From Roseinatronobacter sp. S2 (GTDB taxonomy: Bacteria > Pseudomonadota > Alphaproteobacteria > Rhodobacterales > Rhodobacteraceae): DNA of 64,000 nt. The stretch lies in assembly GCF_029581395.1 (NCBI RefSeq), contig NZ_CP121113.1:2848001-2912000 (forward strand), read 5' to 3'. Below are positions 25,450 to 39,124 of the stretch, one piece after another. The position numbers and the translations under genes were made by a program. Each line of letters opens with the position of its first letter. The stretch's first letter is position 1. The notes under the pieces were generated by a model. That model was not told where the DNA came from and made no database searches. It saw only the letters and a list, made by a program, of their open reading frames with translations.

Positions 25450-25497
25450 TGGTGCCGCTGAAGGGACTCGAACCCCCGACCCCATCATTACGAATGA
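25450..25497 (-). tRNA. tRNA-Thr(CGT), 3' half, separated from its 5' half
   Basis: Minus strand: the end of the anticodon loop and stem, variable loop, T arm (GGGGG-TTCGAGT-CCCTT), acceptor strand CAGCGGC, discriminator A and encoded CCA. Its acceptor pairs with GCCGCTG at 39118-39124, 13.6 kb away. What lies upstream here (25498 onward) is element DNA with no D arm, so this half cannot fold into a tRNA by itself. Confidence 0.9.
25486..25497. other. Attachment site, hsdR side (att core)
   Basis: CATTACGAATGA is shared exactly with 39085-39096. On the minus strand it reads TCATTCGTAATG, spanning the anticodon stem-loop of tRNA-Thr(CGT). Crossover must lie within these 12 bp. Confidence 0.85.
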
Positions 25498-25556
25498 TCA
25501 GGACTGGCAGCTAAACCCATTGTAAAATAACGATTTTCTGTCGGCTCGACTGTGCG

Positions 25557-25574
25557 TTGCAAGAATGTTGCAAG
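25557..25574. promoter_or_regulatory. Paired TTGCAAG sites near the left attachment site
   Basis: TTGCAAG at 25557-25563 and 25568-25574, 11 bp apart (one helical turn), 60-77 bp inside the att core. The same word occurs in inverted orientation beside the other att site at 38952-38976. Candidates for integrase arm-type or excisionase binding sites. Confidence 0.45.
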
Positions 25575-25590
25575 GCCGAACGGCGCGCCA

Positions 25591-25851
25591 TCACTCTTGG
25601 ACTGGTGCGTGAGGGATACAGGTTGCGACGTTCTGCATACCGATCCGGCGCGTCATGAACGGTTCGCTCTCTGGGTAGCCGGATTGCTCTGAATTTGCCG
25701 CTGCCCAGTCACGCCAGCGGTTGAACGCTTCCGCGATCTCGCCCCTTGCCGCATCCTCGGCGTCAAGACAGTCTTGCAACGTGTCGAAGGTGAGCCCTGT
25801 CTTTACGGGTGCGCCACCCATAACCAAGATCACCAACATCCACTTCATCAA
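25591..25851 (-). CDS. Small hypothetical protein, hydrophobic N-terminus
   Basis: 86 residues starting MMKWMLVILVMGG, a short hydrophobic leader that could be a signal or anchor, followed by a charged helical body with two cysteines (LQDCLDAEDA, NVATCIPH). The pattern DTLQDCLDAEDAAR recalls small phage/host secreted proteins. It is not recognised. It lies between the left att site and the unknown partner of the Panacea gene and may be the end of that transcript. Confidence 0.5.
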   Translation of the reverse strand: MMKWMLVILVMGGAPVKTGLTFDTLQDCLDAEDAARGEIAEAFNRWRDWAAANSEQSGYPESEPFMTRRIGMQNVATCIPHAPVQE

Positions 25852-25869
25852 AACCGCCAGCCTTCAAGT

Positions 25870-26616
25870 TTACGGGTGATCGAAAAGGGGGCCGTCGGTG
25901 CCCGTCGGGCGGCGGCGCGCATCCCGCTCGCGTTCTTCACAGACGTCCCGCCACATCTCATAGGTTTCAGCGACCATCTGTTCCAATTCGTCGAGTGTGT
26001 AGAGGGTCACGCCATTGTCGGTGTAGAGTCGCGCCGCGCGCCGGTCTGCGTTCGGTTCATCGAACCGAACGATTGCGAGGCCAACTTCGGCAAAGTCTTC
26101 GTCGGCCGCCCGGATGCGCTCGTGCATCATCGAAAAAGCGAAACGCCGACCCTCCGCGCCCAAGCCTTTGCTCCGGCGCGGTTCAATGAAGATCGCATGA
26201 GGTTCATCGTCGATTGCAATAACCATCGACTGCCAGAACGTCACCTTACGGCCTGCGCCCATCGCAAGCGGGAAGAACTCATGTTTGCGTCCGATCACTC
26301 GCCCAGAGGTCGCGAAGTCATGTAGGCCGCGAGCAACGCGCTTGTTGTGGAAGCGCTCAACCTCGCTGCTACCTCGCTTGTCAATCAACGCCTCAATCGT
26401 CGCCCACGGCGTCGGCTCGGCTGAGCCGAAGTCGAGATCGGGTTGAATGTTGAATATGTCATCAAAACAGGATCGGAGCGGCTTGTAGGAGAATGGCGGG
26501 CGACCACCGCGCATTTGCTCTAGGCTTCTGCGCTTCATGTCTTTTGGCTGCGGGGCGATCCGCGCCAGGTCAATGTCAGGCAAAGGGCGTATCGTCACTA
26601 GGCGGTTCTCCGGCAC
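25870..26616 (-). CDS. Unknown protein overlapping a Panacea antitoxin; candidate toxin
   Basis: 248 residues, not recognised as a known toxin. It begins inside the antitoxin-like gene with a 41-bp overlap, so the pair is translationally linked, antitoxin first. The body mixes a basic N-terminal third (RGGRPPFSYKPLRS), a beta-rich centre (KVTFWQSMVIAIDDEPHAIFIEPRRSKG) and an acidic-helical C-terminus (LYTLDELEQMVAETYEMWRDVCEERERDARR). Position next to a Panacea protein is the only reason for proposing a toxin or phage-defence effector. Confidence 0.55.
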   Translation of the reverse strand: MPENRLVTIRPLPDIDLARIAPQPKDMKRRSLEQMRGGRPPFSYKPLRSCFDDIFNIQPDLDFGSAEPTPWATIEALIDKRGSSEVERFHNKRVARGLHDFATSGRVIGRKHEFFPLAMGAGRKVTFWQSMVIAIDDEPHAIFIEPRRSKGLGAEGRRFAFSMMHERIRAADEDFAEVGLAIVRFDEPNADRRAARLYTDNGVTLYTLDELEQMVAETYEMWRDVCEERERDARRRPTGTDGPLFDHP

Positions 26617-27124
26617 GAGGGGTAGCGTCCACGGACACCTTGTGGTGTCGGAATCGCTCCGAGATCACAGTATCCGGTATTCGCATCCCAAAAGCAACCT
26701 CTGTTCTTGCTTTGTTTACCACCGCATCCCACGGAGAGCCTTTCGCGTGGGACAGGTCAACAAGGCGTCCAGGTGACAACCTGCCGTAGCGCAAGACCAC
26801 CTCGGCAATCAGGCCCCTTACATCTTTGTCTGTCGGCAATGGCAGGTCGCGCGCCTTTCCCGTCAACGGGTCCTTCGCGACGGCGCGCATTGCAATGGAA
26901 TCTGATCCCGCCCCCTTGAAGGCTCGATAGACAGCCGGGTGGACAGGACCATACTGCCAAGCCTCAAAGTAGCCTGATACAAGCGGGCGCTTGTTCTGAG
27001 TCAAATAGATGCCATGAGCGAAGTAGAGCAGCTTTTGCAGGGCAAGGTTCGATATCCTGATGCCGTGCCGCTCAGCCTCATCAAGCATCAGGTTCGCGAT
27101 TGCCCTTGGATCATACGCACTCAT
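26576..27124 (-). CDS. Panacea (DUF4065/SocA-like) domain protein, probable antitoxin
   Basis: 182 residues. Family features: ANLMLDEAERHGIRISNLALQKLLYFAHGIYL at the N-terminus, FEAWQYGPVHPAVYRAFK in the middle and a C-terminal helix ending LSHAKGSPWDAVV. Panacea domains neutralise diverse toxins, several of which act on translation or tRNA. First gene of a two-gene unit whose second gene overlaps by 41 bp. A complete tRNA-Thr lies 85 bp upstream on the same strand. Confidence 0.85.
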   Translation of the reverse strand: MSAYDPRAIANLMLDEAERHGIRISNLALQKLLYFAHGIYLTQNKRPLVSGYFEAWQYGPVHPAVYRAFKGAGSDSIAMRAVAKDPLTGKARDLPLPTDKDVRGLIAEVVLRYGRLSPGRLVDLSHAKGSPWDAVVNKARTEVAFGMRIPDTVISERFRHHKVSVDATPRAGEPPSDDTPFA

Positions 27125-27208
27125 CGCCTCATGCCTGCCGCCTTCGCGTTCCGCTTTTGTTCGTCACAATGCCTCATCCCAAGGTGATTTGGCAATGGGT
27201 GATTTTGG

Positions 27209-27284
27209 TGGTGCCCCAAGACGGACTCGAACCGCCGACCACCTATTTACGAAACAGGTGCTCTACCAACTGAGCTATTGGGGC
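27209..27284 (-). tRNA. tRNA-Thr(CGT), complete copy carried by the element
   Basis: Folds fully: acceptor GCCCCAA/TTGGGGC, D arm GCTC..GAGC, anticodon arm CCTGT-TTCGTAA-ATAGG (anticodon CGT), T arm with TTCGAGT loop, discriminator A and encoded CCA; 76 nt. It has the same anticodon as the split chromosomal tRNA but a different acceptor stem, anticodon stem and T stem, so it is not a recent duplicate. A GTTTAAAC palindrome lies 11-18 bp upstream of its 5' end. Confidence 0.95.
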
Positions 27285-27348
27285 CCGCAACGTCGTTTAA
27301 ACAACGACCGCGCGAAGCGCAAGACCTGACACGACGCGCCCGAAGCCG

Positions 27349-27687
27349 AGTTGCGAGCGAGTCGCAACTGCTCGATGATGTTGCATGATCTTGGACGACC
27401 TCATCCTGACCGGCTTGACGGTCTGGGTCCTCTGGCTTGCGTTGTCGGATTGATACGCGGCCCAGGGCCTCGGTTTCCCGAGAGTGCCCGCCCTGGGCCG
27501 CGCTGCGCGTTCGAGAACGTACTGCCCTCATGGAGGCGAGACAGTAGGTTTCTACTGCTCGCATAATGCGCGACGGGGCTGCTTGGGATCAACTCATGAT
27601 TGAGGAGGAGCGCCACCGGAGGACCCTGGGATGGGCTGAATCCCCCGGTGGCTATAGGCGCAGGAAATCCACTTCTCACGCCTGCGC
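27349..27687. other. Non-coding stretch rich in perfect stem-loops
   Basis: No credible gene between the tRNA and 27868. Five perfect inverted repeats lie in series: arms 27349-27356/27362-27369 (8 bp), 27456-27467/27491-27502 (12 bp, with an inner CTCGG/CCGAG stem), 27542-27547/27552-27557 (6 bp, 4-nt loop), 27612-27619/27645-27652 (8 bp) and 27658-27664/27681-27687 (7 bp). Could be a structured RNA, packaging site or origin. Confidence 0.5.
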
Positions 27688-27816
27688 AACATGGGCGACC
27701 ATCTGCCTTGAATCAAGCGCCCGCCAAGGTCTCGCTCCAGCTAAGACACTGGGATCAGAAAGTTTTTTCGACCTTCCCACGCATCCCCGGTTGAGCAGAT
27801 CAGGAACGGATGCAAG

Positions 27817-27855
27817 TGTTGCGACATGGCAACACATCGTTGCCACCTAGCAACG
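27817..27855. promoter_or_regulatory. Two tandem palindromic operators
   Basis: TGTTGC-N6-GCAACA at 27817-27834 and CGTTGC-N6-GCAACG at 27838-27855. Both are perfect 6-6-6 dyads with centres 21 bp apart, so they lie on the same helix face. They sit 13-51 bp before the ATG of the first plus-strand gene, as expected for a repressor covering promoter and leader. Confidence 0.75.
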
Positions 27856-27867
27856 GAGTGACACGAC

Positions 27868-28125
27868 ATGACGACCACCTACACCATTCACCGCGCCTAC
27901 GACCACGGCGTCGCTGCAACCGCTTCGGGCGTCACCTTGCAATCGCGCGCCCAAGCGCTGGCCGAGGATGCCGAGAACCACGGGCGTCGGTTCTACGTCC
28001 ACAACGGCTCGGGCGTCTGCGCTGCTTTCCTCGTCAAGCCGCAAGGCGCCTTTGACCTGCTGCACGCCGACTACCGCCAGTTTGATCAGGCCGCGCGCGA
28101 ACGTCGCGAAGCCATCAACCTCTGA
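27868..28125 (+). CDS. Small hypothetical protein, first gene of plus-strand operon
   Basis: 85 residues, not recognised. Sequence MTTTYTIHRAYDHGVAAT... suggests a compact alpha/beta fold with a GRRFYVHNGSGVCAAF strand pair. Begins 12 bp after the tandem operators, so it is the gene they most directly control. Next gene starts 26 bp downstream, after a GAACAGGAGA ribosome site. Confidence 0.6.
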   Translation: MTTTYTIHRAYDHGVAATASGVTLQSRAQALAEDAENHGRRFYVHNGSGVCAAFLVKPQGAFDLLHADYRQFDQAARERREAINL

Positions 28126-28151
28126 GCGCACCCCGAACAGGAGAAACGACC

Positions 28152-28601
28152 ATGACGAAGACCCAGATCGCTGCCGAACTCGCCACCCTCGGGATCGTCC
28201 TCACCGCATCGCAGATCAAGAAGGCGTCGCTCGCGGACCTCCAAGCCCAACTCGACGCCGCCCGCAAGCCGAAAGCCGCCCGCAAGCCGCGCGCCCTGGG
28301 CCCGCACGTCTTCTGCAAGCCGTCGGGCGACCCGAAAGCCGTCCGCGCAGGTTCCAAGAAGCACATCCTGCTCGCCGCACTCGAGAAGGGCGCGAGCTTG
28401 GACGACCTGATGACTGCGACGGGCTGGCAGAAAGGCGTCGTGCAGTCAGCCTTCCAGTACGACGTGAAGATGACCGGGTTCGGCGTCGAGCGTCGCGCGG
28501 ACGGCCTCTACTACCTCATCTTCCCCAAGAACCTGAAAACCATCCCGGTCGCGACTCCCGACGTGTCGCGCACGGATGCGCTTGTCGCGGCTTGTCGCTG
28601 A
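28152..28601 (+). CDS. DUF3489-like small protein
   Basis: 149 residues. N-terminal helix (TKTQIAAELATLGIVLTASQIKKAS), a basic Ala/Lys-rich linker (ARKPKAARKPRA), then a winged-helix-like DUF3489 region (RAGSKKHILLAALEKGASLDDLMTATGWQKGVVQSAFQYDVK). Similar proteins occur on plasmids and phages of Rhodobacterales and are probably small DNA-binding proteins. It is second in the plus-strand operon. Confidence 0.65.
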   Translation: MTKTQIAAELATLGIVLTASQIKKASLADLQAQLDAARKPKAARKPRALGPHVFCKPSGDPKAVRAGSKKHILLAALEKGASLDDLMTATGWQKGVVQSAFQYDVKMTGFGVERRADGLYYLIFPKNLKTIPVATPDVSRTDALVAACR

Positions 28602-28625
28602 ACCCCCACCAACGGAGTACCTACC

Positions 28626-28892
28626 ATGACCCTTTCCGAATTGATCGCCACCCTCCAGGACCTCGCGAACGACTGCGACGGACACGACCCCGAGGTGCGC
28701 ATCGCGCAGCAACCGTCCTGGCCGTTCGAGTACCGTCTTTCTGAGGCGGTCCTCGTTGACCTTGACGCGGACGACCATGAACCCCCGCACCCCACGACGA
28801 CCTACGGCGAGCCTCGCCTCTTCGTCTACCTCGGTGAGGGTGGGCAAATTGGCTACCTGCCAGGCGCGGCGAAAGACGCGCTCGGCTGGTGA
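28626..28892 (+). CDS. Small acidic hypothetical protein
   Basis: 88 residues, rich in Asp/Glu and Pro, not recognised as a functional family. The pattern ELIATLQDLANDCDGHDPEVRIAQQPSWPFEYRLSEAVLVD resembles small phage/plasmid proteins annotated only as hypothetical. Preceded by an AACGGAGTACCTACC leader like those of its neighbours, and followed by a terminator at 28921, so it ends the operon. Confidence 0.6.
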   Translation: MTLSELIATLQDLANDCDGHDPEVRIAQQPSWPFEYRLSEAVLVDLDADDHEPPHPTTTYGEPRLFVYLGEGGQIGYLPGAAKDALGW

Positions 28893-28920
28893 TGTAGCCA
28901 CCCACGACGACCCGAAGACA

Positions 28921-28946
28921 GGGCCCGGCACTTGCCGGGCCCTTTC
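28921..28946 (+). terminator. Rho-independent terminator
   Basis: Hairpin with 8-bp arms GGGCCCGG/CCGGGCCC around CACTTG, then TTTC. It separates the three-gene unit from the gene at 28979. Confidence 0.75.
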
Positions 28947-28978
28947 GATTCCAGACCCCATCAACGGAGAACCACGCG

Positions 28979-29269
28979 ATGCTTGACGACTCAGACAACC
29001 TTTTCCTGAAATCCGACTTCCACTTCGCCGCGCGCATTGCGCAAAGCAGGATCGACGCAATCGACGCGAGCCCTCGGTTACACTGGGCCGTGACTGTCCA
29101 GGGCCTCGACGCGCCCTTGACGTTCGACACCCACCCCGATCATGCGCAGATCATCGCTGCCGCGCGTGACGCAGGCGTCTATGGCTTCGTGCGCGTGTTG
29201 CGTGTCGGGGTCGGTCAGAAGCGGCCCCGGCCTCTGCTGCTCATGCCGTGGCAGCGGGTCAGGTCCTGA
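28979..29269 (+). CDS. Hypothetical protein
   Basis: 96 residues, not recognised. A helical N-terminal half (MLDDSDNLFLKSDFHFAARIAQSRIDAIDA) is followed by two short beta segments (LHWAVTVQGLDAPLTF, YGFVRVLRVGVGQ). Leader CAACGGAGAACCACGCG matches the other plus-strand genes of the element. It is followed by a hairpin terminator shared with the convergent gene at 29328. Confidence 0.55.
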   Translation: MLDDSDNLFLKSDFHFAARIAQSRIDAIDASPRLHWAVTVQGLDAPLTFDTHPDHAQIIAAARDAGVYGFVRVLRVGVGQKRPRPLLLMPWQRVRS

Positions 29270-29296
29270 CGCGACCGAGAATTTGGACAACGTAGC

Positions 29297-29319
29297 GAGG
29301 CGGCCCTCGGGGCCGCCTC
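29297..29319. terminator. Bidirectional hairpin between convergent small genes
   Basis: GAGGCGGCCC/GGGGCCGCCTC stem with a 2-nt loop between the stop codons of the genes ending at 29269 (plus) and 29328 (minus). T tract is weak on both sides. Confidence 0.55.
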
Positions 29320-29327
29320 ATGTCGTT

Positions 29328-29567
29328 TCAGGACCTGATCTGCGCTTTGCGGTAGAAGTCGATAAGAGCGGAAAGGACGCTGTTGACCATTCGCAGGTCC
29401 TCAGGTTTGTTCAGCTCCGCCCAGCCCCACCCAGTCGCGTCCGTCACATCCGAGCCGTTACAGAACTCCCAGTTGCCTTCCGGGGTCTCGTCGAGGTAAT
29501 AGGTGGCGCCGTTGCAGATGTCAGTCAGAACGTCGACCGCGTCCTGTTCGATGACCAGTCTTCCCAT
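29328..29567 (-). CDS. Small hypothetical protein
   Basis: 79 residues, acidic and aromatic (EFCNGSDVTDATGWGWAELNKPED), not recognised. The start at 29567 is preceded by AAGGAGAACTACC, a strong ribosome site; a longer frame to 29600 lacks one. Upstream, 29568-29892 (325 bp) contains no gene; its only clear structure is the palindrome GCGTTTAAACGC at 29708-29719. Confidence 0.6.
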   Translation of the reverse strand: MGRLVIEQDAVDVLTDICNGATYYLDETPEGNWEFCNGSDVTDATGWGWAELNKPEDLRMVNSVLSALIDFYRKAQIRS

Positions 29568-29892
29568 GGTAGTTCTCCTTTGTTGCCGACCGCGCGCCAT
29601 TGCGCGGCGGCTAGGAGGAGAGAAAGGATGGCCGGGTGCTGTTTCATGAGCACCTTCTACCCCAGGGAATCACCGCGAGTCAAGGGCTAAGTATCTGTTA
29701 CCGCTCAGCGTTTAAACGCACGAGGTCCGCATCGCAGCAGCGCGTCGCTCGCTGGGGTGTCGTGCGCTGCCCCATCATGGAAGGCGCGACCAGGTGCTCC
29801 CCCAGCGCTCGCGCAGCTCTCTTGGGGCTCTTGGCGTCGGCTCGTGTTGTCATGCGTGGAACCGCTGAACGCTTACCAGCGATCTGCGGTTC

Positions 29893-30624
29893 TTACCCCC
29901 AATATCCCGCAAGCTGGGCGGTCTCGAACCGCGCGGGCTGGAAGTGCGTCTCGCCGATCAGGGCCAGGGTGAGCGCCGAGAACCTGTCTGCGTGATGCCC
30001 ACGCCCCCCAGCCTTGAGGGTCAGGTTGCCCGCCGACGTTTCTGCGTACTCGACCGACTGGATTTCCGACATAAGGGCCTGCTTTTCACGTTCGGGCAGA
30101 CCGCCTGCGATGCGCAGTGTTCCGTTCTGGAGGCAGACGGCTGCGTTCTCGAACAGGACCTGCTTGCTGACGCGCGCGAGGTTCCCCTTCCTGCTGAACG
30201 TCGCGCCCGCAGTGATCGACACGGACAGGGCCGGTATCTTGGCCGCATGGAACATGGAGGTCAGGGGCGCGCCGAGGCCCGTCGCGTCAAAGGTAAGGTG
30301 CCAGTTCTTGAGCTTTTGCAGCTTCTGGCCGACCCATTCGACCACGTCGGTGGCCTCGTCCAGCCGCGCCGTCTCGCTGTAGACGACGACGTAGTCAGGC
30401 GGCGTCAGGGCCTGCTGCCACCCGCGACCCGTCATGTAGGGCCTCGACTCCGCCCGGATGATCACGAGCGCCGACGGGTCATCCCCACGGCCCCCAACGT
30501 CGAGGCCGACGGCGAGCCGCCTGAACCCGATCTTCTGGTGCCCAGCGCCTGCGGGGTCTGCGTTGGTAGGCAGGACGAGTCGCCCGCCGTCGAGTTCAAC
30601 AAGTTCGCCTGGAATCACAGACAC
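29893..30624 (-). CDS. Phage terminase large subunit, nuclease cistron
   Basis: 243 residues corresponding to the C-terminal RNase H-like nuclease of TerL: GLDVGGRGDDPSALVII (first acidic residue D42) and a late acidic segment GGRGHHADRFSA. The start is GTG at 30624, preceded by GGAGGA with 6-nt spacing, inside the last codons of the ATPase cistron. So nuclease and ATPase are made as separate chains. It would cut packaged DNA at headful or cos sites. Confidence 0.85.
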   Translation of the reverse strand: MSVIPGELVELDGGRLVLPTNADPAGAGHQKIGFRRLAVGLDVGGRGDDPSALVIIRAESRPYMTGRGWQQALTPPDYVVVYSETARLDEATDVVEWVGQKLQKLKNWHLTFDATGLGAPLTSMFHAAKIPALSVSITAGATFSRKGNLARVSKQVLFENAAVCLQNGTLRIAGGLPEREKQALMSEIQSVEYAETSAGNLTLKAGGRGHHADRFSALTLALIGETHFQPARFETAQLAGYWG

Positions 30625-31400
30625 AGCGCTTCCTCCGTGTTGTTCATGCTCTGCTCCAGGACTTTCCAGGACAGAAGCGACTCGCCCGAACCGACCCACT
30701 CGCACAGGTGCTCGCGGCGGAATTTCATGTCAGGCATGGTGCGGCGGTCGAACTCGATCTGTTCCAGCCGTTCGGGCCTGTTCGTTTCCATCGAGACGGC
30801 CTTGATCCGTCGCACGTCGGCCTGGGATTCCCAGGTCTCATAGAAGTAGCCTGTTCGCGTCCCGTTCGGGGTGGACAGGAGCAGGATGCGCCCCGTGCTC
30901 TTGCGCATCGGAAAGAATGCAAGCAGGGCCTCGTCAGGGGTGATGAAACATGCCTCGTCCCCGAGGATCGTGTCCGCCGTCATACCCCGCGCCTGATCCG
31001 TAGCCGGGACCACGACGATTCTGCCCCCATGTCGCGGGTGTGCTTCCAGTTCGGTCTGTGTCTGGCGCACGATGGGCGGACAGAACGGGTCCGCGTGCTT
31101 GAAGGCAAGGATGCGACGGAAAAGCTCCGTCGATTGGCGCAGTGACGGCGCGGTCAGAACGACCGTCTTGCCCTTTGAGAAATCATCATAGGCTAGGCAG
31201 CCGCAGGTCGTGCTCTTTCCCGACTGCCGCCCGACGAGGGTCAGGACGAGCTTGTCCGTCTCGTTCTGGATAGGGTCTGTGCGCAGCAGGCGCTCTTGCC
31301 ACGGGTCAGGTTCCCCGATGACCGACCGAAACCGCTGGACAGGGTCCAGTGCGACCGTGATGCCGCTCAGAAAGTCGCGAACGTCGGGGGAGAAGCTCAC
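30615..31400 (-). CDS. Phage terminase large subunit, ATPase cistron
   Basis: 261 residues ending in a normal stop. Walker A GRQSGKST (57-64), Walker B ILGDEA (D148, E149) and the coupling motif LLLSTPNGTRTGYFYE identify the packaging motor ATPase. Usual TerL proteins are 450-600 residues with the nuclease on the same chain; here the nuclease follows as a separate overlapping cistron. Its ATG overlaps the TerS stop by 4 bp. Confidence 0.9.
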   Translation of the reverse strand: MSFSPDVRDFLSGITVALDPVQRFRSVIGEPDPWQERLLRTDPIQNETDKLVLTLVGRQSGKSTTCGCLAYDDFSKGKTVVLTAPSLRQSTELFRRILAFKHADPFCPPIVRQTQTELEAHPRHGGRIVVVPATDQARGMTADTILGDEACFITPDEALLAFFPMRKSTGRILLLSTPNGTRTGYFYETWESQADVRRIKAVSMETNRPERLEQIEFDRRTMPDMKFRREHLCEWVGSGESLLSWKVLEQSMNNTEEALCL

Positions 31401-31975
31401 CGCGCAAGGCTCCTCGGTTCGATCACCTTGAGGTGCCCCATGCGCTCCAGGAAGTCGGCTTTCGCCTCGGGGTGGCGGTCGAGCACCTCGATCATGACGC
31501 GACGCAGTTCCAGGAAGGCGGGGCTCTCGTGCAAGGCGAAGTGCACCTCCACCTTGCGCGACAGCTTGCCTTGGAGGTCAGCCAGCGCCAGGAGCGATTG
31601 CCGCAGTTCCTTGAGGGTCCCGAGTTGCAAGACCCGGTCTTCGTCGCCCTTCGCGTCGGACAGTAGGGTCTTGAGTTCGCGCAGCAGCCATTTCACGTCC
31701 TGCTGCACGTCGTCACCGAGTTCGTTGACGACCTCGGCGTTCTGGATCGCGGCTTTGACTTTGGCCTCGTGGTAGTGCTTCGCCAGGATTTCCAGGCGTT
31801 CTTCTTCCGTGACCCGCGACATGTAGCGACCGACCGTTGTCTCGGAAATCTTCAACTCCCGCGCGACCCCGGTCATTGTCATCCGGCCGAGGACGACCGC
31901 CGCGACCAACTTGTCGCGGCGGGCCTTCGGAAGCTGGTCGATGACCGTCTTCCCGGCTGGGGTGTTCGGGGCCAT
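31397..31975 (-). CDS. Phage terminase small subunit-like protein
   Basis: 192 residues. N-terminal helix-turn-helix (LVAAVVLGRMTMTGVARELKISETTVGRYMSRV) would recognise the packaging site, followed by long helices for oligomerisation and motor contact. Position directly before the TerL ATPase with ATGA overlap supports the call. The stop of the preceding gene shares a base with its ATG (TGATG). Confidence 0.75.
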   Translation of the reverse strand: MAPNTPAGKTVIDQLPKARRDKLVAAVVLGRMTMTGVARELKISETTVGRYMSRVTEEERLEILAKHYHEAKVKAAIQNAEVVNELGDDVQQDVKWLLRELKTLLSDAKGDEDRVLQLGTLKELRQSLLALADLQGKLSRKVEVHFALHESPAFLELRRVMIEVLDRHPEAKADFLERMGHLKVIEPRSLAR

Positions 31976-32361
31976 CAGTCAGCGATGATTTCGAGGGGGA
32001 TGCCCAGGCGCTCGGCCTCAGCTTTCGCCGCCCGATACGACTGCACGTCGCGCGCGTCGGATTTCTTCAAGCGGACAGACGTCGGCCCGCCCGACTTGGG
32101 CTGGAAGGTCCCGTCCTTGTCGAGCCGGGCGCGCTGCTGGCTGTCTGCTGCCGCGACCAGGCGGTCGAGGGCGTCGAGTTCGCGGGTCTTCGCCAGCTTG
32201 TCCAGCAACTCGTCGTTCTTCTTGAGGACGCCGCCAATCTGCTCTTCGACCTGTTTTTGAAGGGCAGGCAGGATGGCCTCGGCCACTTTCGGGCCCAGGG
32301 CAGCGATCAGGGCGGCTGCTTGCTTGTCGTTGTCGTTCTCGGTGGTCATGCGTGTCTCCAT
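31975..32361 (-). CDS. Hypothetical coiled-coil protein upstream of TerS
   Basis: 128 residues, highly charged and helical (AILPALQKQVEEQIGGVLKKNDELLDKLAKTRELDALDRLVAAAD), then a short basic segment KSGGPTSVRLKKSDARDVQSYRAAKAEAERLG. Not recognised; could be a scaffold or packaging accessory by position. TGATG coupling to TerS. Two ATGs lie close together at the start (METRMTTE). Confidence 0.6.
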   Translation of the reverse strand: METRMTTENDNDKQAAALIAALGPKVAEAILPALQKQVEEQIGGVLKKNDELLDKLAKTRELDALDRLVAAADSQQRARLDKDGTFQPKSGGPTSVRLKKSDARDVQSYRAAKAEAERLGIPLEIIAD

Positions 32362-32369
32362 CGTGACAG

Positions 32370-32395
32370 AAAAGAGCGGGCCCTTTCAGGCCCGC
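32370..32395 (-). terminator. Terminator between wHTH gene and packaging genes
   Basis: On the minus strand GCGGGCC-TGAAAG-GGCCCGC is followed by TCTTTTCTG. It separates the upstream wHTH/portal transcript from the coiled-coil/TerS/TerL unit, which would then need its own promoter. Confidence 0.6.
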
Positions 32396-32468
32396 CCTTG
32401 GTTGCGTTTTCCATCACACAAAGGAGCAAAGGCCTAACCCCGCGACGTGATCATGGACGCCTGCCGCG

Positions 32469-33185
32469 TCACGCCGCAACGCTGGATTGAGGTACTTTAA
32501 GCCTCCACCTCGTGTCGTCGCGTTCGATCATACGCCGCGCTTCGAGCGACCGCAGGAGGTTCAGGATTCGGTCCTGGCCGACGTCCCCATCTAGGGCGAA
32601 GACGAGCTCCCGGACGGTGAGCGCGTCGGCATGCAACGCGTCCAGGAGCCGCTTTTCTGCGGACGGTGGGGCGGGCGGTTTCTTTGGCTTTGGGGCGGGT
32701 GGCGGCCCGAGAAGATCGACACCTGCGCGACACCACTCGCCCCGTCGCACGCGACGGACGAGGCCCTTGTCTTTCAGGTGGTGCAGTCGGGCGTTGACCA
32801 CGCAAGACGACAGCTTGAGGTGGCGCGCGAGTTGCATGGACGTTGTCACGTCGTCATGGGGCATCGCGTCCAGGATAGCGAGCCAAGAGGACCCGCTCGC
32901 CTCGTCGCGTTTAAACGGGCGCTCCGGGGCAGGATTGCGGAACCGCGGCCTCAGTCGGGTGAGTACGGCTTCCTCGTCGAGCCCCAGAGCGTCCAGGAGA
33001 TCACGGCGGGACTGCGCCCACGGCCCCCGAGGCTGCAAGAAGAACTCGTGCGCCTCGAACGCGACCACGTCGTCTGGGTCGCCCAGATCGTCGATTGCGC
33101 GCTGCAACACGGCGACGAGGAGGCCCACTTCTTTGCTCGTGATCTCGGGTCGGAAACAGGTCGGGTCTGTTCCGGGTCTTGCCAT
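32469..33185 (-). CDS. Protein with two winged-helix-like regions
   Basis: 238 residues. A wHTH-like segment (TTSMQLARHLKLSSCVVNARLHHLKDKGLVRRVRRGEW) lies around residues 115-150; after a Pro-rich linker (LLGPPPAPKPKKPPAPPS) a second one (LTVRELVFALDGDVGQDRILNLLRSLEARRMIERDDTRWRL) closes the protein. N-terminal third is helical and unassigned. Stop codon region adjoins the portal gene (3-bp gap). Likely a DNA-binding regulator or packaging factor; not a known family to me. It contains one of three GTTTAAAC palindromes in the element. Confidence 0.6.
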   Translation of the reverse strand: MARPGTDPTCFRPEITSKEVGLLVAVLQRAIDDLGDPDDVVAFEAHEFFLQPRGPWAQSRRDLLDALGLDEEAVLTRLRPRFRNPAPERPFKRDEASGSSWLAILDAMPHDDVTTSMQLARHLKLSSCVVNARLHHLKDKGLVRRVRRGEWCRAGVDLLGPPPAPKPKKPPAPPSAEKRLLDALHADALTVRELVFALDGDVGQDRILNLLRSLEARRMIERDDTRWRLKVPQSSVAA

Positions 33186-33188
33186 CGT

Positions 33189-34562
33189 CTACCTCGTCGC
33201 GTTTTGGAACAACTGCTGGACGACGCCCATCTCGCCGCCTTCCTCCTCGATCAGGGCCATTTCTTCCTCGACTGGGCGGTCGATCACCTCGCCCTTGCGC
33301 AGCTTCTCGATGAAGGACTCCCGCGACATTGCGCCCGCGTTGACAGCGGCCAGGAGTGCCGTGACAAGCTGGGGCGTGATGGTCGTGGAAACCAGGTCCT
33401 TGTTGAACTCGACGATGACCTCGCCAGGCTGGACCCAATCCGCGGCCCAGGTCAGAAGCGTCCGGACACCGGCCTCCATCGTGTTGATCGACGATTGCAG
33501 GGTGGCCGTGTCGTTTGCCATGCGCAGCGAGGCGGTTTCCGCCGCCTCGCTGCGACGGACGCCAGACAGGATCATGGTCGCGCCCAGGGAGTTCATGCGC
33601 GACTCTTTGTCCTGCATCGCACGACGCAGGCTCTCGTGGGCGTCCGACGGGGCGGACAGGAAGAACGCCGTCGTACCTTCGGGCAGCATCCAGAGCGACG
33701 CGGGCCCGATGGCTTGCGGCCTCTGGTCCTCGTTGAGGGAACCCGTGATCACGGGAGTCGGCATCGCGGACAGCCAGAGGGCGTGCTCGAGGTTCGCGCT
33801 GTTCTCCCAATGCGCGACGTTGACGTCCACGAGGTCGAGCATGGGCGGTTTCTCTGTGTCAGGCTCCAGGTTGTAGGGCCCGAAGATCACAGCCGGGATG
33901 TAGAACAGGGGCCCGCCACGGACGGTCGGGATGATCTCCTCGTCCACCTGGGATTCTTGCGCGTCCCCGTCGCGCCCGATTGCGACGTGGTACCGACGGA
34001 TGGTCAGGGCCGGTTCCAGTGTCATGACCAGGTGTTGTTCGTAGCCGGTGTCTTCCAGGTCCTCGTTGTCTTCATGCAAGCGCAGGTAGGTCAGTCGGCG
34101 AACCCCGTTGACGAGCCCCATGCTCCAATCCAGGATCGACTCCGCGTTGAAGTAGGACAGGTGCGGCGTGCTCGTGGGCGTCGTGCCTGTCACGGGGAAG
34201 TCGAGGACGGCGGCGCAGCGCCCAACGGACAGAATCTCGCGCAGGATGTCCGTAGACAGAACTTCCATCGAGCGCCCGTCGAACGAGGCATTCTGGAGCA
34301 TCGGTTCGAGCCGGGGCGGGACCTTGAACTTCGGGTCCTTGCGGAAGGCGAGGCCGAGCATGGTGCGGAGTGTCGTGTCGGCGACGGGGAAGAAGTGCGC
34401 GCCTTTCAGGTACTGGAGCCACTCGTCGGTGGTCAGGCCCTTCGGTCGGCGCAGGTAGAGCGACGCGTTCGCGCGCATCGCGTCCTGGCCGTCGAGGGCG
34501 TGCCGGATGCGGTCGTACTGAGCGCGGCGGCGCTGGTAGGTGCGGTGGTGGATTCGAGTCAA
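33189..34562 (-). CDS. Phage portal protein (DUF4055)
   Basis: 457 residues resembling the DUF4055 portal family: RRAQYDRIRHALDGQDAMRANASLYLRRPKG at the N-terminus, AVLDFPVTG and YFNAESILDWS in the middle, and LAAVNAGAMSRESFIEKLRKGEVI near the end. The portal ring is the DNA gate of the capsid and docking site of terminase. Start is TTG at 34562 after a strong CAGGAGGCAAACC site; a longer ATG frame to 34643 has none. Gene order portal-before-terminase is the reverse of the common one. Confidence 0.85.
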   Translation of the reverse strand: MTRIHHRTYQRRRAQYDRIRHALDGQDAMRANASLYLRRPKGLTTDEWLQYLKGAHFFPVADTTLRTMLGLAFRKDPKFKVPPRLEPMLQNASFDGRSMEVLSTDILREILSVGRCAAVLDFPVTGTTPTSTPHLSYFNAESILDWSMGLVNGVRRLTYLRLHEDNEDLEDTGYEQHLVMTLEPALTIRRYHVAIGRDGDAQESQVDEEIIPTVRGGPLFYIPAVIFGPYNLEPDTEKPPMLDLVDVNVAHWENSANLEHALWLSAMPTPVITGSLNEDQRPQAIGPASLWMLPEGTTAFFLSAPSDAHESLRRAMQDKESRMNSLGATMILSGVRRSEAAETASLRMANDTATLQSSINTMEAGVRTLLTWAADWVQPGEVIVEFNKDLVSTTITPQLVTALLAAVNAGAMSRESFIEKLRKGEVIDRPVEEEMALIEEEGGEMGVVQQLFQNATR

Positions 34563-34581
34563 GGTTTGCCTCCTGGGTGTT

Positions 34582-34627
34582 GACGGCCTCGGGGTCTTGA
34601 GGAGGAAGGCGCGCCCCCGAGGCCGTC
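34582..34627. repeat. Long inverted repeat before the portal gene
   Basis: Perfect 13-bp arms GACGGCCTCGGGG (34582-34594) and its complement (34615-34627) around 20 nt. It lies between the HNH gene and the portal start, so it could be a terminator/attenuator; no T run follows. Confidence 0.6.
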
Positions 34628-34653
34628 GGTGCCCAGCGCGCATGATATGCGTA

Positions 34654-35688
34654 TCAGGGCACGGGAGGGCTTCCGACCGGCATAATCAGGTGGCGGTCGG
34701 AAAGTGAGGTAGCGTATTCCGCCGCCATCCACTCAGCGACGAGTTCGAGTTCCCACGGCGTCGCGTTCCGTTTGAGGCGGTTTGCTAACCATGAGACAAC
34801 TAGCACGTTGTCGCGAACGTAACCTCGGCGGGAGTCGATCCGGTCAGGGGAAGGAGTTGCGTCATGGTTTTCTTTGAATGAGTAGTCGAACTTCAAGCCC
34901 AAGATCGGGCAGCGATCCGGCCACGCGATATCCGCAGGAACGAAGGTGTCTACTTCGTGGACCTTTGCAGCTTTTGCGGCTCCGAACCGTCTGTGCATGA
35001 GAAAGCGGCGGGGGTCGCAGCCGTAATAGCCTTCTCCTAGCCCGTCGATCCAATTAGGCATTGGGTGGCGCTTCTCGTTCGCGCGAGCGTCTTCCAAGAT
35101 TGCGCGAAGGGGCCGCGCATAGAAGTCGGCTATCTTCCCGAAGACCTCAGGATCTGTGCAGTTGCTTTTCAACGTGTTGCAGCGTTTGCAGATGACCCGC
35201 GCGGTGTCCGGCGTCAGGTCGCAGTTGAGACCGAAAAGATGATCGAGGTTGGGCGGACGATCTCCGCCAATCTTCATTGTCGAGTAGCAACACGGACAGG
35301 AGTGCCCAGTTGCTTCATACGCGCTGACCACCCACTCGGGAGTAATCGTGACCTTGCCCTGCGTTCGATTCTGTGCGCTTTCTATGGCCCTCTCGGCCCA
35401 GCCCATTGAAGGAAACGCCAGATGCGTGGCGGCTCTGAAGCCGTTGCCGGTGTGCGTCCTACTGAAGCTAGCGTCTGCTTTCTCGCGACTTAACTCGAGA
35501 GTGCACGCGGGGCAATTTTTGGGTCCACTAGCGGCGATACCGCGCGGGACCCAGTGTCCTCGACTACAGGGGAAGTTTGACACGCATGTGGTTTGACCGC
35601 GTGCGACGGCTTCCTTTGCTGAAATGGGTGTTCCTATGCGAAACTTCGGAACAGGGCGCACGACGCGCCGGACGTAGTTGGTGCTCAT
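34654..35688 (-). CDS. HNH-type endonuclease-like protein
   Basis: About 344 residues. A zinc-rich HNH-like core lies in the middle (CPCCYSTMKIGGDRPPNLDHLF...ARVICKRCNTLKSN) and a second nuclease-like segment near the C-terminus (CPILGLKFDYSF...SPDRIDSRRGYVRDNVLVVS). N-terminal CSRGHWVPR...NCPAC adds another zinc knuckle. HNH genes next to terminase often serve packaging, but free-standing homing enzymes look similar. Start uncertain (ATG 35688 or 35724, neither with a good ribosome site). Composition is more AT-rich than its neighbours. Confidence 0.7.
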   Translation of the reverse strand: MSTNYVRRVVRPVPKFRIGTPISAKEAVARGQTTCVSNFPCSRGHWVPRGIAASGPKNCPACTLELSREKADASFSRTHTGNGFRAATHLAFPSMGWAERAIESAQNRTQGKVTITPEWVVSAYEATGHSCPCCYSTMKIGGDRPPNLDHLFGLNCDLTPDTARVICKRCNTLKSNCTDPEVFGKIADFYARPLRAILEDARANEKRHPMPNWIDGLGEGYYGCDPRRFLMHRRFGAAKAAKVHEVDTFVPADIAWPDRCPILGLKFDYSFKENHDATPSPDRIDSRRGYVRDNVLVVSWLANRLKRNATPWELELVAEWMAAEYATSLSDRHLIMPVGSPPVP

Positions 35689-35724
35689 GTTCAAGTTGCT
35701 CGCTTCGTGTGCTTGCTCGATCAT

Positions 35725-36482
35725 GCACGCGGCGACGCGGGGACGACAACCGGAACATCGGGTGGCGTGAAAGCGCGTCAGAGAGGCGCGTAGCGGGCTG
35801 GCGGGTATGTCGAGTCCCAGCGATGAGACTTGCCCAGCGAGCGCCTAGCTCTCTGCGGCGCTTGCGCGATTGCGTGGGACAGCGAGGGCGCGTTGTCAGG
35901 AGCGCGGCGCAGGACCTCGGGCGCGAGGGGTAGTTGCGAATGAGTCGCAGGACCTCGTGTGACCCCTGTCTCGCTTGCAATCCGACGCGGTTTGCAAGGA
36001 TTCCGACCAGGATTGTGCTTTGTTCGCAAGTGGTTGACCAGCTTCCCCCGATCATTGCGCATGATGCGCCGGGAAAGTATGTCAGCAATGTTGACGTATC
36101 TTGCAGAGACAGCGGGGGCGGCAGGGTCGCCCAGGATCACGACGACGCAGGACCCAGAATCCGTCTATCGCGCGCACGCGCGTAGAGCTCTATAAAATGC
36201 CTATTAGATCATAGGGTTGCGCGCACCCTGTCAGAACACCAGCCATCTGGGCCATCTGACCGACTTCCTGTAACCCGATGAAAAGAAACAAGAACCAGGA
36301 CCAGTGCTGCAAATGATGTGGGTTCGCTGCCGAATGAAGCCGTCCAAATTCTTCATCTCTCGCGCGCTATGCAGCACCAACCCAAGGGGCCCCAGGGTCT
36401 CCTCCTGAGGGCGTGGTCGATCTACCGATGTCTGGGAATACCGCGACATTAGCAACCGACCACGACCCTCGCAAGAAGAAAC
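35725..36482. other. 758-bp stretch without a supportable gene
   Basis: No frame here has a convincing start and composition. An AT-rich patch (36187-36215, with TATAAAAT and ATTAGATCATAG) stands out from the GC-rich surroundings and could hold a promoter or an origin. A 74-codon minus frame (36231-36455) lacks a ribosome site. Confidence 0.4.
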
Positions 36483-36986
36483 TTAGGTAGCGTTCTCACG
36501 CCGCTCCCGAACAACCCAGCGCCCCCGCTGATGGACGACGACATGCAGACGACCCGTCCTCTCTGATCGCCGCCCCGCTTCCTCGCAAGCCGCCCGCGCC
36601 CCCGCAGGATCGACGACAACATCCGTCTTGCGGATGACCTTGTTGAGACCCATGCGATGCAGACGCCCCGTGCTCTCGATCAGATCGGCCATGCGCGCGA
36701 AGCGATGCGCGACGGTCAGTGTCTCGGGCTTGTGCCTCCGCACAAAGCCGTCCTTGCATGACAGGCACCTGTCCGTCACCGTCTCACGCGGTGAGTACCT
36801 GGAACACTGCGGGCACTTGCGCCCCGTGAAGTACTGGTCCCGCTTCATCATGCGCGCCATGCGCCGTGTCTCAGGAAGCTTCGCCCATTCCTCGTGCCCG
36901 CACTTCTTGGCTGCGGCCATGCGGGCCGCACGCCTTTCTTTCTCTGCCTGCTCGTTCCAGGCGCGACGCTGCTCAGGAGTTGCCAC
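36483..36986 (-). CDS. Zinc-ribbon protein
   Basis: 167 residues beginning at GTG 36986 after GGAGGGTGGGC. Helical basic N-terminus (TPEQRRAWNEQAEKERRAARMAAAKKCGHEEW), then a four-Cys ribbon CPQCSRYSPRETVTDRCLSC, then a basic helical C-terminus. Family not recognised; likely nucleic-acid binding. It overlaps the stop of the next upstream gene by 14 bp. Confidence 0.65.
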   Translation of the reverse strand: MATPEQRRAWNEQAEKERRAARMAAAKKCGHEEWAKLPETRRMARMMKRDQYFTGRKCPQCSRYSPRETVTDRCLSCKDGFVRRHKPETLTVAHRFARMADLIESTGRLHRMGLNKVIRKTDVVVDPAGARAACEEAGRRSERTGRLHVVVHQRGRWVVRERRENAT

Positions 36987-37320
36987 GCCCACCCTCCAGA
37001 CATATCGGCTCAATCGTCGGGTCGTCGTCGAGCCCATCTCCCTGACCATCGCGGACAGGCATCAGCCACCAGTCGCCCTCGAGGTCTTGCCAGGGGACGT
37101 GCAAGTAGCCTGAGTGCAGCGTCTTGGTATAAGCCGCCTCGAACGCCGCGCGCATCCGTCGCGTGTACTCAGGCGACCGATCCATGGGCTGACAGACGGT
37201 GCAGCGCTTCGAGATGGCCCAGCGAGGCGCGTCGTGTCCGCAGGAGTTGATCCGCCCCGTGTAATACGACGCGATGCCGAGCGCCTTTGCCTCACTTGCG
37301 GTTTTCGGAAGGTTGTTCAT
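36973..37320 (-). CDS. Small Cys-rich hypothetical protein
   Basis: 115 residues. A ribbon-like pair CGHDAPRWAISKRCTVCQ lies near residue 27; the rest is WW-rich and acidic (DLEGDWWLMPVRDGQGDGLDDDP). Overlaps the HTH gene stop by 4 bp (ATGA) and the next gene by 14 bp, so HTH, this gene and the Zn-ribbon gene form one unit downstream of the integrase. Not recognised. Confidence 0.6.
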   Translation of the reverse strand: MNNLPKTASEAKALGIASYYTGRINSCGHDAPRWAISKRCTVCQPMDRSPEYTRRMRAAFEAAYTKTLHSGYLHVPWQDLEGDWWLMPVRDGQGDGLDDDPTIEPICLEGGRGNS

Positions 37321-37553
37321 CCCTGCTTCTCCCGCAGGAACGCGACCAGGTCGTCGCGCAGATAGCGCACGATGCGCGCATTGACCTGCGAGTACTTCGG
37401 GCCCCAGGCGTCTTTGCGCCAGCGATAAAGGGTTTCCGTCGTGACGCCGAGGAACTCGGCGGCCTCTCCTGGGGTCATCACTTCGGGGGCGTTCGCGCGC
37501 AACACGACGGAACGCAGATCGGCCATTTCCTGGCCAAGTTTCTCAAGAGTCAT
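37317..37553 (-). CDS. AlpA/MerR-like HTH protein, probable excisionase or regulator
   Basis: 78 residues with a winged helix of the excisionase type: MTPGEAAEFLGVTTETLYRWRKDAWGPKYSQVNARIVRYLRDDLVAFL. Such proteins bend att DNA and set recombination direction, or activate element genes. Encoded 145 bp downstream of the integrase on the same strand and coupled to two small genes. Confidence 0.85.
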   Translation of the reverse strand: MTLEKLGQEMADLRSVVLRANAPEVMTPGEAAEFLGVTTETLYRWRKDAWGPKYSQVNARIVRYLRDDLVAFLREKQG

Positions 37554-37697
37554 TGGTCATTGCTCCACTAGGGTGTGAAGCCAGATGACCGTGACGCATC
37601 CCGATCCATGGGCGCGCGCAATGCGCGCCGCTCTCGCGTCTACGGCCTCGCGCCTGGTCGGGTCACTATCCCCAGGCGCGGAGGCTGTGATCAAAAG

Positions 37698-38942
37698 TTA
37701 GGCGCGTTTCGATCCCATTTCAACAACATTACTAGGTGATGCTTCGCACCGGATGTCGATCACCCGAGAAATCGCGTTCGCAACGCGGCGCTGACGTTCG
37801 ACAGGCACCTTCCCGTAGTGCCCGAGTGCCTGTGTGTCCCCGTCGGTCAGCCGCTGCCCGCAGAGCCAGCGCAGCACCATTTCGCGCGTATCAACGTCCT
37901 GGGTTGCCTCCGACCACAGGTGGCGCAGGTCGCCCTCGTTCAGATGGACGCCTTCTCGGATCATCAGCCGGTCCAAGGCGTCGAGCGGCCCGCGCTCGCG
38001 CCCCACGATGCGACGCGACGGAAAAACCCAGTCGCTATCGTCGAACCTGATTTCTGACAGCCGCCTGACCATCGCCCATGCACGGTCAGACAGCGCTATA
38101 ACTCGCTTATCCGTTCCCGCGTGTTTGAGGCCATGCCTCACGACAACCGTGCCTGCATCGAGATCAACGTCTGACCATGTCAGGCCGCGCAGCATCGCGC
38201 CGCGCATCCCGGTATGCCAGCGAAGCATCCAGCAGAGGCGGATGTGCTCGTTCTCGACCTGCTCGATGCACGCCCAGCGCTCTTTCCAGGTGACGTCCTC
38301 GGCCATCGCGCGCTTCTGCATCTTCGGGTTGCGGTCAAGCTTGGGGACCAGGTAGGGGAGGCGCCCGTTGATCATGCGCTCCGCGCGCCGCAGCGAGAAG
38401 CCGACGACCAGGTTGAGCTTGTGCGCAGCGAACGGTGCGCGGTCGGCCAAGTCGTCGAGCAGCCTCTGCACCGCCGCATGATCGAGCGCGTCCACCTTGA
38501 GGTCAGCCCAGGTGCTGAGGTACTTGTCGAACGTCGCGCGGTAGCCTTGGGTCGTCTTGTTGTGGATCGGCCCGCCGTATGCCGCGCCGCGCGTCGTGCG
38601 TGTCGTAAGATCGCGCTCGAACGCCTCGCGCAACGTGGGCACCCCTGCACGTTCCTCCGCGCGCTCTGACCGCGTGCGCGCGCGTCCGTCGGTGATGTCC
38701 AGGACGATCTTGCCGATCTGGTTCTTCGCCCAGACGGTGTGGGTGCCCTTCGCGGCCCAGGGGCCGAGTTTGACCTGGCGCGTCTTTTGGGCCGTCGCGT
38801 CCCACCTGACCACATACCAGGTCTTGACCCCTCCAGGGGTGACGCAGAGGCGCAGGCCTTTGACCGAAGGGTCTGAAAACCAGGTCGTCTTGTCGGCCTT
38901 GAGCTTGGCAATTGCCGTGTCGGTGAACTTGATCTGGGGCAT
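37698..38942 (-). CDS. int: Tyrosine recombinase (integrase)
   Basis: 414 residues. Arm-binding DUF4102-like N-terminus (MPQIKFTDTAIAKLKADK...GLRLCVTPGGVKTWYVVRW), core-binding domain ~100-215, catalytic domain from ~220. Catalytic Arg is R247 (TGMRG) and R340 (GDLRH). The usual first His is G337, the usual LGH His aligns with Q363, and the only Tyr available as nucleophile is Y376 (ALGHY), so the active site is atypical. It lies next to the right att site, preceded by AAGGA and a large palindrome. Confidence 0.9.
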   Translation of the reverse strand: MPQIKFTDTAIAKLKADKTTWFSDPSVKGLRLCVTPGGVKTWYVVRWDATAQKTRQVKLGPWAAKGTHTVWAKNQIGKIVLDITDGRARTRSERAEERAGVPTLREAFERDLTTRTTRGAAYGGPIHNKTTQGYRATFDKYLSTWADLKVDALDHAAVQRLLDDLADRAPFAAHKLNLVVGFSLRRAERMINGRLPYLVPKLDRNPKMQKRAMAEDVTWKERWACIEQVENEHIRLCWMLRWHTGMRGAMLRGLTWSDVDLDAGTVVVRHGLKHAGTDKRVIALSDRAWAMVRRLSEIRFDDSDWVFPSRRIVGRERGPLDALDRLMIREGVHLNEGDLRHLWSEATQDVDTREMVLRWLCGQRLTDGDTQALGHYGKVPVERQRRVANAISRVIDIRCEASPSNVVEMGSKRA

Positions 38943-38944
38943 CT

Positions 38945-38982
38945 GTCAGTCCTTGCAATGAGCGTGCTGTTGCAAGACTGAC
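38945..38982. promoter_or_regulatory. Palindrome directly upstream of the integrase
   Basis: GTCAGT-c-CTTGCAA (38945-38958) is mirrored by TTGCAAG-ACTGAC (38970-38982) around 11 bp. It touches the integrase start codon (38940-38942) and contains the same TTGCAAG word as the left end. It could be an operator for int or recombination arm sites. Confidence 0.6.
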
Positions 38983-39057
38983 GATACGATCCAACACCGG
39001 TTAAACCCAACCGAGAATTGTGCAAGCGCCTGATTTTGTTTGGGTTTTTTGGTGAAA

Positions 39058-39077
39058 CCCGCCCGAGTGTTGGCGGG
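39058..39077 (-). terminator. Hairpin between the tRNA-Thr 5' half and int
   Basis: CCCGCC (39058-39063) and GGCGGG (39072-39077) pair around an 8-nt loop. On the minus strand the stem is followed only by GTTTC, so it is a weak terminator candidate. It would stop read-through from the tRNA promoter into int. Confidence 0.4.
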
Positions 39078-39084
39078 ATTCTCG

Positions 39085-39096
39085 CATTACGAATGA
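39085..39096. other. Attachment site, hemY side (att core)
   Basis: Second copy of CATTACGAATGA, identical to 25486-25497, within the 5' half of tRNA-Thr(CGT). Confidence 0.85.
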
Positions 39097-39124
39097 CGTG
39101 CTCTACCAGCTGAGCTACAGCGGC
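39085..39124 (-). tRNA. tRNA-Thr(CGT), 5' half, interrupted
   Basis: Minus strand: acceptor GCCGCTG, TA, D arm GCTCAGCTGGTAGAGC, anticodon stem and loop with CGT. After the anticodon loop the sequence departs from tRNA and becomes element DNA without any T arm or matching acceptor strand. Joined to 25450-25497 through the shared 12 bp it gives a perfect 76-nt tRNA-Thr. Confidence 0.9.

Follow-up and report, generated by a model that had tools for sequence, protein, structure and literature searches.

In canonical tRNA-gene islands (Islander, PMC4383910), a tyrosine integrase takes a tRNA gene as its target and restoration of this gene is the norm. Another solution, in which a whole incoming tRNA replaces the broken one, is already published for phages as tRNA-dependent lysogeny, which was defined with tests in mycobacteriophages (PMC10865867); according to that report, it is not clear how restoring and tRNA-dependent modes of integration are related in evolution. 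The same source describes the actinobacteriophages Fionnbharth, LeBron, Mollymur and Gaia, whose near relatives instead restore their tRNA, as well as the Lactobacillus johnsonii prophage Lj965, where the tRNA is not rebuilt and a cognate tRNA is found on the prophage. The podophages vTRX32-1 and kin from Rhizobium leguminosarum (PMC8631192) have a 12 bp core inside tRNA-Leu and carry a complete, core-less tRNA-Leu, which is said there to replace the broken gene and to prevent super-integration. In Sinorhizobium meliloti, phage-related sequences substitute a host tRNA gene by an incoming one, a case likened in the corresponding reports to tRNA-dependent lysogeny (PMC11476347, PMC12429752).

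We analyzed an element of this kind in a 64,000-nucleotide stretch of the chromosome of Roseinatronobacter sp. S2, termed here the window. It has in common with the canonical islands a tyrosine integrase and a tRNA target; whereas restoration is the norm for the latter, no restoring tRNA half is carried by its attP. With the Rhizobium podophages it shares the length of the core and a complete tRNA lacking this core, although these are phages of 42-45 kb inserted in another tRNA, and with the Sinorhizobium sequences the incoming tRNA that substitutes a host gene and the class Alphaproteobacteria, though not the host. The likeness with the actinobacteriophages lies in the existence of close kin restoring their target. 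The latter are phages of Actinobacteria and were deletion-tested, whereas the elements described below belong to Rhodobacteraceae, are known from sequence alone, measure 13.6-15.4 kb, possess a portal and a terminase with capsid and tail undetected, cut their target in the anticodon arm and, for some of them, carry SocAB. We propose that the element works like a tRNA-dependent lysogeny system; lysogeny itself is not claimed for a unit in which portal and terminase were found and capsid and tail were not detected.

The split tRNA gene and its probable replacement

The features of the locus are collected in Table 1. The host tRNA-Thr(CGT) gene, which lies on the minus strand, is broken in its anticodon arm, as read directly from the sequence. 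The 12 bp core CATTACGAATGA has two matches in the window, one at each junction, and no third one with up to one mismatch (in 100 shuffles the mean number of matches was 0.26 and none of the 100 had two); it delimits a core-to-core unit of 13,599 bp. Beyond the core, the tRNA sequence continues on neither side of the element, and a functional tRNA is rebuilt at neither junction of the window. When the two flanks alone were joined, ARAGORN recognized a tRNA-Thr(CGT). Relatives with an empty site, a comparison that the first-pass annotation had recommended, exist in the same genus: of 29 loci, 23 have an intact tRNA-Thr(CGT) next to the upstream gene seen in the window. It was not found nearby in the six others (L060, L062, L068, L069, L071, L074), which have the upstream gene and where contig ends or other insertions are possible. 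The description given in the first-pass annotation, a split gene whose missing half is restored at neither end, is thus borne out by the halves, the core and the rejoined flanks.

Table 1. Features of the element and of its integration site (window positions).
Feature	Position	Strand	Evidence
5' half of split host tRNA-Thr(CGT)	39085..39124	-	Ends in core; integrase-side junction; sequence and flank rejoining
3' half of split host tRNA-Thr(CGT)	25450..25497	-	Begins with core; far junction; sequence and flank rejoining
att core copy, 12 bp, TCATTCGTAATG on tRNA strand	39085..39096	.	
att core copy, 12 bp	25486..25497	.	
Complete tRNA-Thr(CGT) of the element	27209..27284	-	ARAGORN, Rfam; sole intact CGT copy found in genome
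60 nt upstream of element tRNA with TTGCGC and GTTTAAAC	27285..27344	-	Promoter-like pair kept in relatives
Tyrosine integrase, 414 aa	37698..38942	-	Pfam PF00589 2.3e-11; phrog_1; alignment
Small HTH protein, candidate excisionase	37317..37553	-	Pfam HTH_17; phrog_66 excisionase 1.7e-8; beside integrase in relatives too
Endonuclease VII / HNH-like protein	34654..35724	-	phrog_3322 6e-26
Portal protein	33189..34643	-	phrog_145 3.9e-103; Pfam DUF4055
HTH protein, putative small terminase subunit by position	31397..31975	-	Kept in relatives; PHROGs match function-unknown only
Large terminase, ATPase part	30615..31400	-	phrog_7579 3.2e-36
Large terminase, C-terminal part, other frame	29893..30705	-	phrog_2 weakly 5.7e-4, phrog_27743; second ORF in relatives too
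SocA antitoxin	26576..27124	-	NF047745 268.5 bits, cut-off 190
SocB toxin	25870..26616	-	NF047746 316.1 bits, cut-off 210

The only tRNA detected by ARAGORN on the window is the tRNA-Thr(CGT) of the element, which scores 70 bits with Rfam against a gathering score of 29. It has 59 of its 76 positions in common with the native gene reconstituted from the flanks, in agreement with the different stems noted at first pass for a tRNA of the same anticodon. We then considered the whole genome G000 (4.45 Mb, 6 contigs, completeness 100), in which the tRNA-model search gave 42 matches. ARAGORN, applied at all 42 loci, found the Thr anticodons GGT and TGT plus one CGT, that of the element. A second intact copy of native type, the observation which the first-pass annotation had named against its own reading, was absent among these 42 loci.

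The sequence GTTTAAAC occurs at most 60 nt upstream of nine of the ten element tRNAs visible in the window and its relatives, with GTTTAGAC in its place in genome G150, and its chance occurrence is 0.0001 per shuffled 60-mer. Its spacing is constant in eight of them (TTTAAA at -20, against -17 in the window), with TTGC(A/G) further upstream, and we read the two motifs together as a conserved, promoter-like pair.

Gene content of the element

From the 5' half of the host gene, the element (25498-39084) presents the integrase, the HTH/excisionase-like gene, the endonuclease-like gene, the portal, the small HTH gene, the large terminase in two ORFs, the tRNA, SocA and SocB, up to the 3' half. The PF00589 match of the integrase and the fact that all ten relatives of the genome_contigs scan have their junctions at the tRNA are consistent with a tyrosine integrase acting at the host tRNA gene. 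The adjacent socA and socB homologues, both above curated cut-offs, correspond to a type VI SocAB toxin-antitoxin system. No capsid or tail family was matched by the 20 element ORFs scanned against PHROGs, a scan that covers the window element, the gene content of the relatives having been compared by tblastn. On the basis of this gene content, the element is possibly a satellite packaging into the capsids of a helper.

The two-frame large terminase (29893-31400) is found as the same two pieces in eight related loci (L126, L127, L131, L132, L133, L164, L165, L166), and the annotation of plasmid pSC52_1 also gives two terminase genes, with a 4-base overlap, so that the split looks ancestral rather than the mark of a broken gene. 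In the C-terminal ORF, homology begins near residue 31. A small ORF of the plus strand (28152-28601) matches phrog_7790, of unknown function, and has homologues in L126, L131, L132, L163 and L166.

Relatives with the same integrase and architecture

The scan of genome_contigs provided ten integrase relatives with 42-62% identity; each is preceded, at a distance of about 150 bp, by a tRNA 5' half that has TTCGTAA and is not restored. In the sample of 394 genomes of the family, seven have an integrase match at E ≤ 1e-60, the window included (judging from contig number and coordinates, G082 is G154 and G221 is G150). Altogether, 13 elements were found at tRNA-Thr(CGT), again with the window included (G000, G147-G156, G180, G224). 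For eight of them (G000, G147, G148, G153, G154, G155, G180, G224), a single contig contains the two junctions, and all eight display two broken halves, a separate complete tRNA-Thr(CGT) and no remnant half at either junction. They are 13.6-15.4 kb long, share a core of 11-16 bp and carry their own tRNA-Thr(CGT) 89-1712 bp from the far junction. The same architecture is spread over two contigs in G149. The 5' half and the element tRNA, but not the far junction, are visible in G150, and G152 has both broken halves on two contigs, the far one ending inside socB before the expected place of the tRNA. G151 shows the 5' half alone, with no CGT-pattern match, and the degenerate G156 is ambiguous: its integrase is truncated, and its complete tRNA has the acceptor stem of its 5' half. 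From these sequences, a broken host tRNA accompanied by its own replacement looks like a repeated integration strategy among the relatives of the element.

Outside this sample, the phage collection has one integrase-related record (21.5% identity), the plasmid collection four, the best being SC52 pSC52_1 at 46.6%, and the viral contigs one related locus, L163. In the same-genus genomes searched, only the integrase of the window itself was found, which led us to reject a genus-wide spread; 3 of 147 relatives have a match at E ≤ 1e-30.

The ten visible element tRNAs correspond to five sequences, all with anticodon CGT: type A (window, G149), type B (G150, G153, G154, G180), type C (G147, G224), type D (G155) and type E (G148). 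Over 74-76 compared positions, they show between 6 and 17 differences with the broken gene. The integrases of G149, G150 and G154 have end branches of 0.012-0.016, yet their tRNAs are of types A, B and B, which indicates a modular swapping of the tRNA. The core is absent from the type A tRNA, whereas the four other types keep an 11 bp core; the idea that the element tRNA would always be immune as an att site was rejected, the core being absent only in the type of the window and G149.

SocAB homologues lie next to the tRNA in 6 of the 11 elements whose tRNA-side end is visible, namely the window, G149, G150, G154, G155 and G152, the last with socB only at a contig end. They were not found in the five others (G147, G148, G153, G180, G224), and SocAB was rejected as a constant part of the element. 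In G148, a DUF4365 gene (L127 15020-15991) stands in the stretch that separates the tRNA of the element from the far junction, which is the SocAB slot of other elements.

An integrase of the same family adjoins an intact tRNA-Thr(TGT) in G085, in G316 and in plasmid pSC52_1 (L164, CP049029.1). In G316, a displaced 3' half lies at the other end, and this locus with its restored tRNA represents the ordinary restoring mode. The other end of the element was not found in G085 and SC52; on the 391 kb plasmid of the latter, no far junction appears within 37 kb. No further complete tRNA is present in the stretches seen at G085, G316 and SC52. At L163, a 3' half of tRNA-Thr(TGT) lies beside the integrase and no intact tRNA was found, for which reason this locus was rejected as an example of a restored gene. 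In the integrase tree (25 rows, 8 of them outgroup rows, with long branches for G180 and P0093 and a fragment for G156), these four loci form one clade (95/95) inside the rows of the CGT mode. This nesting in a tree whose midpoint root serves for drawing only suggests that, within this integrase family, the restoring mode arose after the non-restoring one.

Proposed mechanism and alternative explanations

According to the sequence comparisons, the host gene is split around a short core, its junctions are unrestored, the sole intact CGT tRNA found lies on the element and this arrangement recurs in relatives. The most probable explanation, in which we have high confidence, is that the element splits the single tRNA-Thr(CGT) of its host and brings its own. 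A small SocAB-carrying element of phage origin would in this way follow the same logic as tRNA-dependent lysogeny. The tyrosine integrase would recombine the 12 bp attP core with the anticodon arm of the host gene, and this gene would be broken at both ends because attP carries no tRNA half. As long as the element stays integrated, its tRNA-Thr(CGT), transcribed from the promoter-like motif, could take over the decoding of ACG, and precise excision would rebuild the host gene. Under this scheme, the element tRNA would have to be both expressed and charged, the host would have to need it, and the integrase and the HTH protein would have to act at this very element. As regards the need of the host, tRNA-Thr(TGT) could read ACG as well. 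CmoB modification broadens the wobble of U34, and CmoB has no match over the cut-off in G000, as against one of 14 control genomes with a match over it; this is an indirect indication that such reading would be limited. The knock-out of a host tRNA and the supply of a substitute, as put forward in the first-pass annotation, hold up well in the light of the sole split CGT gene and of the recurrence in relatives. Its second proposal, a tRNA-based maintenance mechanism, stands in part. Indeed, the joined flanks indicate that clean excision would rebuild the host gene, so that the element tRNA can penalize only imprecise loss or mutation of the interior. It is more likely that the first role of this tRNA is to make integration survivable, while SocAB would guard against loss by clean excision.

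One could assume instead that the element tRNA is cargo, present by chance or serving codon supply during phage-like expression or against tRNA-cutting defences, and that the host gene is dispensable since tRNA-Thr(TGT) reads ACG. A tRNA-Thr(TGT) is present in the genome, and ACG makes up 28 of the 64 Thr codons when the three element ORFs that reach 300 aa or more are taken together, compared with 127 of 459 for the chromosome, as counted on 20 of its ORFs in the window, so that a role in supply is possible in addition. On the other hand, wherever an element tRNA is visible, its anticodon is the one of the broken gene (ten of ten elements, five tRNA sequences), which would hardly be expected of cargo of this sort, and the sister loci G085, G316 and SC52, where tRNA-Thr(TGT) is intact, have no other complete tRNA in the stretch seen. 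We regard this explanation by cargo as improbable.

It could also be imagined that we are dealing with a decayed canonical element, whose attP formerly had a restoring tRNA half and whose restored copy was lost or moved. The sister clade does carry a 3' half, and G316 combines a restored tRNA with a displaced 3' half. Such a decay is nevertheless very hard to reconcile with the lack of a remnant half at both junctions of all eight elements, with the differences between the element tRNAs and the broken gene, and with an arrangement that is stable across diverged integrases; we give it very little credit. An artefact of assembly or binning deserves even less, to the point of being negligible. 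Several relatives are fragmented MAGs, but the contig of the window measures 3.48 Mb, a single contig contains the two junctions in eight elements, and other genomes present the same architecture. An assembly error at the junctions of the window, which the first-pass annotation had raised against itself, is hence very unlikely.

A second set of islands and the possible serial replacement of tRNA-Thr(CGT)

A junction pattern derived from a second set of islands, which by construction selects the split 5' half, is present in 15 of the 394 family genomes (loci L188-L202). A complete tRNA-Thr(CGT) begins 109-120 bp beyond the junction in 14 of them, and the contig ends in the fifteenth. Both ends were examined in G231, G439 and G102, as well as in G376, which has another integrase. 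Their cores measure 8, 8, 8 and 9 bp in G231, G439, G102 and G376 (the 8 bp cores being those of L177, L176 and L182, respectively), and the outer halves pair at 7 of 7 acceptor positions in all four. The acceptor of the inner tRNA differs in three of the four and is the same in G231, and the tRNAs of this set keep the host-type anticodon stem. Two of their integrases match PF00589 and PF13356 and have slight similarity, 22-28% over part of the sequence, with that of the window. As regards cargo, matches were obtained to type I restriction-modification in G231, to a cytosine methylase in G102 and to DndC and PbeC/DndD-like genes in G376. In the latter (L178, G376:C1:60500-79500), the sequence of the broken gene is type B, as carried by elements of the window family; a type B tRNA split by a Dnd-like island that itself brings a tRNA-Thr(CGT) points to a possible serial replacement.

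A broader hypothesis, somewhat less probable than its negation in our judgment, would be that tRNA-Thr(CGT) of Rhodobacteraceae is replaced time after time and is in effect a mobile gene. Elements of several integrase lineages, whose cargo comprises satellite-like modules, SocAB, type I restriction or genes of the Dnd kind, would break the copy already in place and put in a tRNA of their own, sometimes at a gene of the type that another element carries, as in G376, and the half-tRNA restoring mode would derive from the whole-tRNA mode in one integrase family. Our literature search, whose coverage leaves many journals outside, returned no description of islands with their own replacement tRNA or of a case in Rhodobacteraceae. 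What appears new here are the small portal/terminase elements without detected capsid, some of them with SocAB, the defence islands, and the presence of both modes in one integrase family. Whole-tRNA replacement, known from phages, would thus also exist in small elements of phage origin and in defence islands, and the relation between restoring and tRNA-dependent integration becomes testable within a single family. The joint presence of the tRNA and SocAB suggests that the two share the work, the tRNA penalizing imprecise loss and the toxin-antitoxin clean loss.

The only copy of a tRNA in a cell can apparently sit on a mobile element. Matches to the CGT pattern occur in 346 of the 394 genomes, among the matches listed, and mix tRNAs with chance matches, so they are not copy numbers. 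The type A tRNA is 100% identical over 76 bases in G002 and G009, two genomes of the same genus, outside any detected element of the integrase family of the window, and element and chromosome may on this ground exchange tRNA. In G009 these copies lie at contig ends (L168, L169), and in G002 the copy is near tRNA-Leu(CAG) (L167).
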